Part shown: one piece after another, positions 873-5,020 of the stretch
How the letters are laid out: every line of letters starts with the position of its first letter
How positions within the stretch are numbered: position 1 is the first letter of the stretch
Source of the DNA: Candidatus Terraquivivens yellowstonensis
Lineage (GTDB): Archaea; Thermoproteota; Nitrososphaeria_A; Caldarchaeales; Wolframiiraptoraceae
Reading direction: 5' to 3'
Length of the DNA stretch: 17,786 nucleotides
NCBI GenBank assembly: GCA_023539445.1
Contig: JAKCEW010000015.1
Span: forward strand, 1-17,786
Made by a program: the position numbers and the translations under genes
Notes under the pieces: generated by a model
Databases searched by the model: none
The model's input: only the letters and a program-made list of their open reading frames with translations
Told to the model about the DNA's origin: nothing

Positions 873-1256
873 TTGAAGTATAGGTTGATGGATTTGCTTG
901 CATGTCCTATCTGTAAGAAGTTTCCGCTTTCGCTTCTGGTGTTTACCGAACAGACGCTCCAACCACCGAAGAACATCAGGAAATGTGAGCTCTATTGTGC
1001 ATACCATAACAGCAGCCTATCTGAGGTGCAAAATCCCGATTGTACGTCGTGCTATACGAAGGAGATATCATCCGGGATACTGATGTGCGACGGCTGCGGA
1101 AGATGGTATCCGATAGAGGAAGAGATACCCCGACTGTTGCCCGATGACCTCAGAAAGCCTAACGAGGATGTTGAATTTCTAAGAAAGTGGAAAGAGAAGA
1201 TACCAGAAAAAGTTCTAAAAGAGGGGAAACCATTTTCATTAAAAGAGCAAGCCTGA
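873..1256 (+). CDS. Enlarged Trm112-like zinc-binding protein
   Basis: Trm112 proteins are small zinc-binding activators of several SAM methyltransferases, acting on tRNA and on release factor in eukaryotes and archaea. The match lies at the two ends: LLACPICKK at residues 8-16, and CDGCGRWYPI then EIPRLLPDDL at 72-93, which is the usual C-terminal signature. Family members are commonly near 60 residues; this one has 127. The extra length comes from an insert between the two zinc half-sites that contains C38, C42, H45, C57 and C60, enough for a second metal site, and from a basic C-terminal tail after residue 94. TTG is taken as the start because a GGGTGA site sits six bases upstream. The stop codon directly abuts the GTG of deoxyhypusine synthase, so the two are probably translated together. 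An alternative is a Trm112-related zinc-ribbon protein with another partner. Confidence 0.7.
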   Translation: MKYRLMDLLACPICKKFPLSLLVFTEQTLQPPKNIRKCELYCAYHNSSLSEVQNPDCTSCYTKEISSGILMCDGCGRWYPIEEEIPRLLPDDLRKPNEDVEFLRKWKEKIPEKVLKEGKPFSLKEQA

Positions 1257-2688: not shown

Positions 2689-3558
2689 TTGGTTCAAGTT
2701 AGAGAATCGTCGGATGAGGATATAAAAAACGCGATGAAGCCAAGGAGGAAATATTCGAGGAAGGGCGAGAACGGTATAGTGCTTGTCGTAGGCGGAAGTT
2801 GGCTCTACCATGGTGCTCCGGCCCTTGCAGCCATGGCATCTTTCAGATGCGGTGTAGACCTAGTTTACATCGCAGTGCCGGAGAAGATAGCTACGCCCAT
2901 AAGGGCGCTTTCGCCAAACTTCATAGTCCTGCCGTTACCAGATTTGAAGCTCACGAAGGGCTCTGTCAGAAGGCTCGAGAAGATCCTCCCTGAAGTCGAT
3001 GCTGCCGTGGTAGGCCCCGGGCTTGTGCCAAAGGATGCTGATGCCTTGACGTTTCTTCTAAAAGAGCTCTTGGAAAAGGATATAGCGGTTGTGCTGGATG
3101 CGGCGGCTTTGATACCGGATGTGCTCGCAATCGTAAAAGGAAAGAAGGCAGTTCTCACACCGCATGCAGGGGAGTTCAAAAGGCTTTTTGGGATCGAGCT
3201 CACGAAGAGTGCCGAGGAGCGCGCTGTTCATGTAAAGGAGAAGGCCTCAGAGTATTCGCTGACGATACTCCTAAAAGGTGTCGTGGATGTTATCTCAGAT
3301 GGCGAGACCGTTGTATTCAATAAGACGGGGACTTCTGCGATGACAGTCGGCGGAACTGGCGACGTGCTCTCTGGACTCGTGGCAGGTTTCCTATCAAGGG
3401 GTGCAAGACCCATCGAAGCGGCTGTGGCCGCCGCGAGAGTGAACGGCTTAGCCGGTGAAAGGGCTACGGTTAGGCTCGGCTATCACATAGTGGCAACCGA
3501 CCTGTTAGACGAAATACCGCAGATACTGAAGGCATACGATGTTATAGTTGAAGATTAG
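2689..3558 (+). CDS. nnrD: ADP-dependent NAD(P)H-hydrate dehydratase
   Basis: This enzyme converts the S form of hydrated NAD(P)H back to NAD(P)H at the expense of ADP, repairing heat- or enzyme-damaged cofactor. It is the stand-alone equivalent of the YjeF C-terminal domain, a ribokinase-like fold, and at 289 residues it is the right size. All expected motifs are present: VVGGSWLYHGAPALAA at 33-48, VVGPGL at 107-112, VVLDAAAL at 134-141, LTPHAGEF at 156-163, LLKG at 194-197, and the nucleotide/catalytic loop GGTGDVLSG at 221-229 with D225 as the likely base. The start is TTG with a strong ribosome site. The gene converges on the epimerase gene, with only 13 bp between the two stop codons. 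Because the dehydratase-like domain fused to that epimerase is degenerate, this gene probably supplies all dehydratase activity for the pair. Confidence 0.92.
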   Translation: MVQVRESSDEDIKNAMKPRRKYSRKGENGIVLVVGGSWLYHGAPALAAMASFRCGVDLVYIAVPEKIATPIRALSPNFIVLPLPDLKLTKGSVRRLEKILPEVDAAVVGPGLVPKDADALTFLLKELLEKDIAVVLDAAALIPDVLAIVKGKKAVLTPHAGEFKRLFGIELTKSAEERAVHVKEKASEYSLTILLKGVVDVISDGETVVFNKTGTSAMTVGGTGDVLSGLVAGFLSRGARPIEAAVAAARVNGLAGERATVRLGYHIVATDLLDEIPQILKAYDVIVED

Positions 3559-3571
3559 TCCGCAGACGTTT

Positions 3572-5020
3572 TTAAGAAGGGTTCTGGACGATGTTTGAGA
3601 GTTTCATCTCATACAAAAAACTTCTAAGGGCTGAGAATATGCTCCCAGGGGTTGCCAACTCACCTGCTTGCGATAACCTAGTGATTATGCTCCTTGTAAC
3701 AAAGCTGGCCGCCGATAGGGACCTTATAACGTCCGCTCCCCATGATAGGAGTGCCGAAGCTATCGCAAGGTAAAGGTACTTATGCATCGGTTCACGAATC
3801 GGTTCTAAAAGCCAATTGGCTTTTGCAATGTTTCCATCCGATATACCATCAACCTTTGCCATTATGCCGACTTGAATGCCAAGCTTTCTGCTAATGTGTT
3901 TTGCAGCCTCTGTAGCCGATTTTACATCATTGAATGCGTCCGGTGCGGTCAGGCCTAAAGATACGACGTCTTCCGATGTGAGAGCCAGCACGACCTTAAA
4001 GTGCTTTTTAGCCAAGTCGGCAATCTCATACGAATGCGTAAATATTTTGATGTCGATGCCAGAATCAGCAATCTCCGTTAAAACATCCCTCCCAACCTTT
4101 CCCTCAAGAAATACCACGGGGAACGTTCTGACGGAATCTGTGAATTCTTTCATGTCAACGTATTTCAAGTTATGTTTGGAGAACCTGGAGGGTTCAACTC
4201 GGCATAATACCGTTACCTCTTTACATATCGAGCTGCATACCTGCAACAAAAGCGCGTTTTCGTCAGATAACTCATCGAGCGCAACGCCAAGTCTTCCCCC
4301 ATCCCTACCTACGTAAGCCGCTGCAGCCCTCAAATCACCGGGCCCTGCTACTAGCTCGGCCTCTGGCGGCATGCCTATCGGTGAAACTATTAGCTCACCT
4401 GCCAGCACCCTGCCGTGCTCCGTCAAAAGACCAGGCTTTACCCTGTGGAAGGTTATCGTTGTGCTCGCCCTGACAGCAGTACCTGCAACAACGCCCGTAT
4501 CTGGGTCAAGGCCGGATGGGACATCTATCGCCACAACATACTTACCCGATTCGTTGATTTGTTTTATTGCTGTCAACCAAGGTTCTCTGATTTCTCCCTT
4601 AATGCCTGTGCCGAATATACCGTCGACGATAGCATCGGAATTCCTTATCTTATCGGCTAATGATTCTAAGGTTGCAACGTCTTTTGCGATAACTATCTCC
4701 GTGGTTGCTTTCATGGAACTGATCGCTGCGAAGTTCTTGCTTGCTTCGTACGTCCTTATCTTATCCGGACTTCCCAAAAGTATGACAAGAACCCTACATC
4801 CATAGCCCGCCAAGTGCCTAGCCGCAACCATACCATCTCCGCCGTTGTTACCAGTTCCACAAAATACGGTAACAAACTTGCCCTTCAAATCTTTGAAATG
4901 CTCCTTTATGTGGTCAGCAACAGCCCTGCCCGCATTTTCCATTAAAAGGATCCTTGATGTGCCGAGATACTCGCTGTTCTCATCAGCGACCGCCATCTCC
5001 TCGGATGTTATAGTCTCCAT
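3572..5020 (-). CDS. nnrE: NAD(P)H-hydrate epimerase fused to a degenerate dehydratase-like domain
   Basis: Residues 1 to about 222 are a YjeF N-terminal (NAD(P)HX epimerase) domain, which interconverts the R and S hydrates so the dehydratase can repair both. Seen are LMENAGRAVADHI at 26-38, the nucleotide loop CGTGNNGGDG at 54-63, VDGIFGTGIKG at 132-142, AIDVPSGLDPDTG at 164-176 with D166, and FHRVKPGL at 191-198. Residues about 229-470 follow the order and spacing of the YjeF C-terminal dehydratase fold but lack its active site. The LTPH-GE motif reads LALTSED (345-351), and the GGTGDVL loop is replaced by EPMHKYLYL (410-418), followed by an otherwise family-like ALLSWGADVIRSLSAA helix and a LATPGSIFSALRSFL end. 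Bifunctional fusions are the usual prokaryotic form, so this looks like one that lost its second activity. ATG at 5018-5020 fits a leaderless transcript from the TATA-like element at 5046-5060. Confidence 0.88.
   Translation of the reverse strand: METITSEEMAVADENSEYLGTSRILLMENAGRAVADHIKEHFKDLKGKFVTVFCGTGNNGGDGMVAARHLAGYGCRVLVILLGSPDKIRTYEASKNFAAISSMKATTEIVIAKDVATLESLADKIRNSDAIVDGIFGTGIKGEIREPWLTAIKQINESGKYVVAIDVPSGLDPDTGVVAGTAVRASTTITFHRVKPGLLTEHGRVLAGELIVSPIGMPPEAELVAGPGDLRAAAAYVGRDGGRLGVALDELSDENALLLQVCSSICKEVTVLCRVEPSRFSKHNLKYVDMKEFTDSVRTFPVVFLEGKVGRDVLTEIADSGIDIKIFTHSYEIADLAKKHFKVVLALTSEDVVSLGLTAPDAFNDVKSATEAAKHISRKLGIQVGIMAKVDGISDGNIAKANWLLEPIREPMHKYLYLAIASALLSWGADVIRSLSAASFVTRSIITRLSQAGELATPGSIFSALRSFLYEMKLSNIVQNPS

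Follow-up and report, generated by a model that had tools for sequence, protein, structure and literature searches.

An NAD(P)H-hydrate epimerase of Caldarchaeales with a putative pseudo-dehydratase domain, encoded beside an intact dehydratase

The gene pair

The window analysed here, a stretch of 17,786 nucleotides from the 1.16-Mb genome of Candidatus Terraquivivens yellowstonensis, a member of the heat-loving archaeal order Caldarchaeales, encodes the two enzymes of NAD(P)HX repair as convergent neighbours, which is their arrangement in the genus. This repair occurs almost universally, and prokaryotes usually have both enzymes joined in one fused protein. The NAD(P)H-hydrate epimerase, NnrE, brings the R and S forms of NAD(P)HX into equilibrium, and NnrD acts as the dehydratase of the S form (PMC5938422). 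The order corresponds to the Aigarchaeota (PMC9246946). The features of the locus are as follows.

3572-5020, minus strand: NnrE open reading frame, 482 residues in two halves, the epimerase and a C-terminal domain
4346-5020, minus strand: NnrE (epimerase) domain, residues 1-225; TIGR00197 192 bits, YjeF_N 167 bits, all epimerase motifs kept
3572-4345, minus strand: putative pseudo-dehydratase domain, residues 226-482 plus the stop codon, opening with the GPGD linker common to archaeal NnrE-NnrD fusions
3968-3988, minus strand: LALTSED, residues 345-351, at the LTPHxGE site of NnrD by genus sequence alignment, an equivalence held with moderate confidence
3812-3850, minus strand: conserved hairpin from D391 to W403, DGISDGNIAKANW in the window
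3767-3793, minus strand: EPMHKYLYL, residues 410-418, at the catalytic GGTGDVL loop of NnrD by profile-profile alignment
2689-3558, plus strand: stand-alone intact NnrD (ADP/ATP-dependent NAD(P)H-hydrate dehydratase), 289 residues, TTG start; TIGR00196 221.6 bits, Carb_kinase 171.7 bits
3154-3174, plus strand: LTPHAGE motif of the stand-alone NnrD (translation, alignment)
3349-3369, plus strand: GGTGDVL motif of the stand-alone NnrD (translation, alignment)

An earlier note on this DNA had described a complete dehydratase with both motifs, 13 bp away on the opposite strand, and the reading frame, its coordinates, the spacing and the TIGR00196 score all agree with that description. In several other genera of the same family the two genes share a contig, with a few kb between them, and in other families of the order they are far apart. 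Elsewhere in the window (873-1256), a small Trm112-like protein was observed in which the 40-position Pfam model spans residues 2-83, so that about 40 residues appear to be inserted mid-protein.

The intact epimerase half

The N-terminal half of the 482-residue protein scores far above the curated cut-offs of both epimerase models, 88.6 bits for TIGR00197 (matched over residues 3-219) and 24.9 bits for YjeF_N, and is thus classified as NnrE. It also carries the NNGGD motif and the catalytic lysine of that family: N59, N60, G61, G62, D63 and K196 are invariant in an alignment of 21 relatives. In E. coli YjeF the catalytic lysine K192 is essential (PMC5938422), and from its position in the aligned motif we read K196 as the probable counterpart. 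Of the two active sites of a bifunctional NnrE-NnrD enzyme, that of the epimerase is the only one found in this protein.

Fold and descent of the C-terminal domain

The remaining 257 residues, counted from the GPGD linker, escape the family models entirely. Searched alone against Pfam and NCBIfam, this half of the protein gave no match even at an E value of 10, and it consequently falls short of the Carb_kinase and TIGR00196 cut-offs by which NnrD is recognized. AlphaFold2, which was trained on TM0922-like structures and was here supplied with only 21 related rows, nevertheless returned a confident model for the domain folded alone (pLDDT 92.9, pTM 0.92) and for the whole protein (pLDDT 92.9, pTM 0.89). 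Among solved structures, the closest to the model of the domain is the dehydratase half of Thermotoga maritima TM0922 (2ax3; Z 21.3, rmsd 3.0 A over 239 residues), followed by the Cryptococcus YjeF protein, EF1790, SMU.573 and B. subtilis YxkO, and then by thiazole kinases and ribokinases; Foldseek concurs (3rt7, E 6e-9). The domain is therefore predicted to adopt the ribokinase-like fold of NnrD, in line with the earlier note, which had read residues 229-470 as the YjeF C-terminal fold and had proposed the comparison with TM0922. Although each half fits TM0922 at about 3 A, the full-length model superposes on it with an rmsd of 17.7 A, and the relative placement of the two halves in the predicted NnrE may thus differ from that in the crystal.

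Profile comparisons point to common descent with NnrD. A profile of the domain's relatives aligned with NnrD profiles at E 3e-10, and a broader set at E 1.2e-13 (hhalign); each of five clades of the domain, taken alone, matched the NnrD profile (E 3e-6 to 6e-13), and controls with reversed columns stayed flat at a probability below 1%. An HMM built exclusively from the extensions retrieved intact NnrDs from other genomes across the phylum, with E values down to 1.8e-15. Among the matches listed, the Caldarchaeal extensions scored at least 126 bits and were followed, after a gap, by intact NnrDs from 57 bits down; outside Caldarchaeales, none of the listed matches scored like the Caldarchaeal domains. 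In the reverse direction, an HMM from intact NnrDs (from the genus of the window and a single relative) matched the domains of several relatives at 23-29 bits, and Pfam Carb_kinase matched that of one relative (E 3.9e-4). Finally, the GPGD linker of the domain is the linker of intact archaeal fusions. In the Carb_kinase profile search put forward as a check in the earlier note, the model misses the window's own domain; the kinship emerges from profile-profile comparison. A cobalamin adenosyltransferase-type chain from the PDB that aligned with residues 366-470 did so at E 0.16, which is within chance.

Loss of the dehydratase active-site motifs

The profile-profile alignment places EPMHKYLYL where NnrD has its catalytic GGTGD loop, and the replacement of GGTGDVL proposed in the earlier note is thereby upheld. 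Its second proposal, that LTPH-GE has become LALTSED, is seen only in the genus sequence alignment and lies outside the confidently aligned region of the profiles. For the N-terminal half of the domain, which MAFFT did not bring into alignment with NnrD, residue-level claims were restricted to motif searches, and these found GTGD, TPH and GPGL/GPGM absent from the domains of all 37 relatives. Neither the window's domain nor any of those 37 thus carries the LTPHxGE and GGTGD active-site motifs of NnrD, and the missing motifs suggest that the C-terminal domain has no dehydratase activity.

What the relatives have kept is a helix, the hairpin that follows it (DGISDGNIAKANW in the window) and the helices after the hairpin. 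W403 is invariant (37/37), and D391 is nearly so (36/37). The hairpin motif ISDG has itself drifted in several pseudo-domains of genera g2 and g5 (L143, L145, L146, L148, L150 and L154), LLLGDSKWR being one example, with the tryptophan after that motif still invariant. In part of family f2 the domain is shortened to 179-181 residues. A homologous predicted fold, lost catalytic residues and a coding sequence under selection are together the marks of a pseudoenzyme, and on these grounds the domain is provisionally classed as one.

Distribution in the order and the phylum

The order was sampled with 44 genomes, and a class-wide search returned the same 44. An epimerase match was found in 41 of them, two being fragments of about 120 residues. 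Among the 39 full-length epimerases, 37 carry the degenerate domain, across 13 genera of families f1, f2 and f4, and the other two, both of family f3, are intact fusions of 515 residues. The degenerate domain is thus present in every full-length epimerase of three of the order's four families. Of the 41 Caldarchaeales genomes searched, 39 yielded an intact NnrD, once as a fragment. The survey suggested in the earlier note, namely whether relatives keep the domain and always have a separate dehydratase, thus finds the domain throughout f1, f2 and f4 and the dehydratase in most genomes.

In a sample of 397 genomes from the phylum, the matches listed are predominantly intact fusions, about 500-560 residues long; family f7 contributes stand-alone epimerases of about 225-262 residues. 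Those f7 genomes that were tested belong to ammonia-oxidising archaea, as judged by AmoA, and have a stand-alone NnrD. Their epimerases stop just short of the GPGD linker; the fused domain is missing altogether rather than degenerate. As a separate observation, a fused NnrE-NnrD of family f6 (L216, genome G045) has a dehydratase domain on an extremely long branch (3.15), which Carb_kinase still recognizes at E 1e-46 and which may have unusual properties.

Phylogeny and history

In the NnrD tree, Caldarchaeales and ammonia oxidisers share a single clade of stand-alone sequences (support 100/99), which adjoins the fused NnrD domains of other archaea. For the epimerases, a single clade of the 37 is not rejected (AU p 0.20), a value with which one clade may be compatible and which lends it no positive support. 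Nor is it rejected that the epimerases of Caldarchaeales and ammonia oxidisers share an origin (AU p 0.09), and adding the f3 fusion to the clade of 37 is rejected (AU p 2.5e-6).

The two intact fusions of f3 (L027, positions 1087-2631, and L028, positions 733-2277; genomes G023 and G026) coexist with stand-alone NnrDs (L194 and L195) of the order's own lineage, a combination that might be mistaken for an evolutionary intermediate. Since their epimerase half falls outside the order's group and instead groups with L057 from another archaeon, f3 was rejected in that role. In this family, an intact fusion of foreign origin seems to have taken the place of the native protein, and the order's stand-alone NnrD to have been retained. 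Beside an NnrD of the same clade, three fates are therefore seen: the fused domain is lacking in one lineage and kept as a pseudo-domain in another, and a third carries a different gene.

Within the NnrD clade, the ammonia-oxidiser sequences (L210-L215, L217 and L218) branch beside those of f2 (L033, L039, L045, L046, L049, L200 and L201) with support 98/96. The grouping could go back to an old gene common to both or to gene transfer from one lineage to the other.

Why the domain persists

The explanation that we consider probable is that the window's NnrE descends from a bifunctional enzyme whose dehydratase half turned into a non-catalytic module, kept for folding, stability or self-assembly. 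The ancestor would have been a bifunctional NnrE-NnrD repair enzyme, and a separate NnrD gene would have come to coexist with it in an ancestor of Caldarchaeales; we propose that this coexistence released the fused dehydratase half from catalysis. That half would then have shed its nucleotide- and substrate-binding loops and would persist as a folded C-terminal module without catalytic function. Repair would proceed as two steps carried out by two proteins: interconversion of the R and S forms of NAD(P)HX by the epimerase half, and dehydration of the S form by the stand-alone NnrD using ADP or ATP. The pseudo-domain would be retained mainly because it helps the epimerase to fold, to remain stable or to self-assemble. 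We infer both the order of these events and the structural role, the latter as the default that remained once the alternatives had weakened. The descent itself, from a former bifunctional enzyme with a pseudoenzyme second half, had already been put forward in the earlier note, and the predicted fold, profile homology, shared linker, motif loss in 37 of 37 relatives and purifying selection all speak for it.

The earlier note had also considered docking of the separate dehydratase. In such a scheme, the pseudo-domain would act as an adaptor that binds the stand-alone NnrD, perhaps mimicking an NnrD subunit in the oligomer, and would thereby rebuild a two-enzyme complex. The domain shares its predicted fold with the putative partner, both genes occur in most genomes, and they are convergent in the window's genus and a few kb apart in several genera of the family. 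In other families, however, they are far apart, and the same NnrD lineage occurs in ammonia oxidisers that lack the domain and in f3 beside an unrelated intact enzyme. Moreover, within the genus the domain has diverged quickly (57-62% identity), whereas NnrD has hardly changed (85-91%). Because the same NnrD lineage occurs without the domain, and because the domain evolves much faster, obligatory docking of NnrD is weakly disfavoured, and the adaptor role as a whole appears rather unlikely. A bolder version, in which the pseudo-dehydratase is a dedicated subunit of a Caldarchaeales-specific hetero-oligomeric NAD(P)HX repair complex with NnrD, the invariant tryptophan and the hairpin serving as the contact, would be more doubtful still. 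Weighing against the structural reading in turn, the intact f3 enzyme and the ammonia-oxidiser epimerases without the domain indicate that the pseudo-domain is dispensable to the pathway.

A functionless, decaying remnant would account for the fast divergence, the 13-26% identity between genera, the variable length, and a dN/dS above that of the epimerase half. Estimated by NG86 over ten independent pairs of relatives, dN/dS is 0.06-0.30 for the pseudo-domain and 0.04-0.12 for the epimerase half, the pseudo-domain being the looser of the two in nine of the ten pairs; YN00 gives values of up to 0.36 in those pairs and up to 0.43 over all pairs, the latter set against 0.04-0.14 for the epimerase half. 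All ten independent pairs thus lie well below 1, and none of the 37 copies contains a stop codon within the domain. With the invariant tryptophan and the confident predicted fold added, decay is quite improbable; as judged from these substitution rates, the pseudo-domain is constrained by purifying selection, yet more loosely than an enzyme.

Nucleotide sensing, which the earlier note had likewise raised, would require the domain still to bind a nucleotide or NAD(P)HX and so to regulate the epimerase. The ancestral fold has a nucleotide site, and the invariant tryptophan and near-invariant aspartate lie shortly ahead of the former catalytic loop. All 37 relatives, however, have lost the motifs of the nucleotide and substrate loops, and in part of f2 the domain shrinks to a size too small for a whole NnrD fold. 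We therefore regard a sensor as very improbable.

Hardly credible is an origin of the domain from another ribokinase-like enzyme newly fused to the epimerase, such as hydroxyethylthiazole kinase (ThiM): a PDB sequence search ranks ThiM above TM0922 (E 1.2e-4 versus 0.02) and Pfam HK matches three relatives, but archaeal NnrDs reach 57 bits (medians 38-39) against at most 12.7 for archaeal ThiM, so that NnrD, and not ThiM, is the closer of the two in sequence; no ThiM was found in the sampled members of Caldarchaeales; the domain has the linker and the position seen in NnrE-NnrD fusions; and the best fold match is TM0922, with ThiM lower. This origin is therefore largely refuted.

Relation to known systems and implications

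Bifunctional NnrE-NnrD enzymes such as T. maritima TM0922 and E. coli YjeF share with the window's protein the order of domains, both folds (here predicted) and an intact epimerase half. Unlike in those enzymes, the dehydratase half lacks every catalytic motif, and a dehydratase is supplied by a separate gene. Stand-alone NnrDs of the B. subtilis YxkO type, which include the window's own at 2689-3558, have the same ribokinase-like fold as that predicted for the C-terminal domain, although the latter lacks LTPHxGE, GPGL and GGTGD and goes unrecognized by the family models. Ammonia-oxidising archaea likewise encode NnrE and NnrD as separate proteins, with an NnrD from the same clade; the domain that is degenerate in Caldarchaeales is simply absent from their NnrE. 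The YjeF-N domain of human Edc3 (3d3k), which resembles the predicted structure of the window's epimerase half (Z 23.2), is reportedly a YjeF-family domain reused without its ancestral catalysis. In Edc3 it is the epimerase-type domain that was reused; in the window's protein, the epimerase half has stayed intact and the motifs have gone from the dehydratase-type domain.

No earlier description of this pseudo-dehydratase domain was found in the open-access PMC literature. New here are the finding that it is retained in three of the order's four families, the signature of selection on it, the comparison of three fates of a redundant domain, and the exclusion of f3 as an intermediate. For genome annotation, length or architecture alone would lead to these proteins being miscalled as bifunctional. 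The outcomes in the three lineages amount to a natural experiment on the fate of a redundant enzyme domain, and the system offers a simple test of why pseudoenzyme domains persist.
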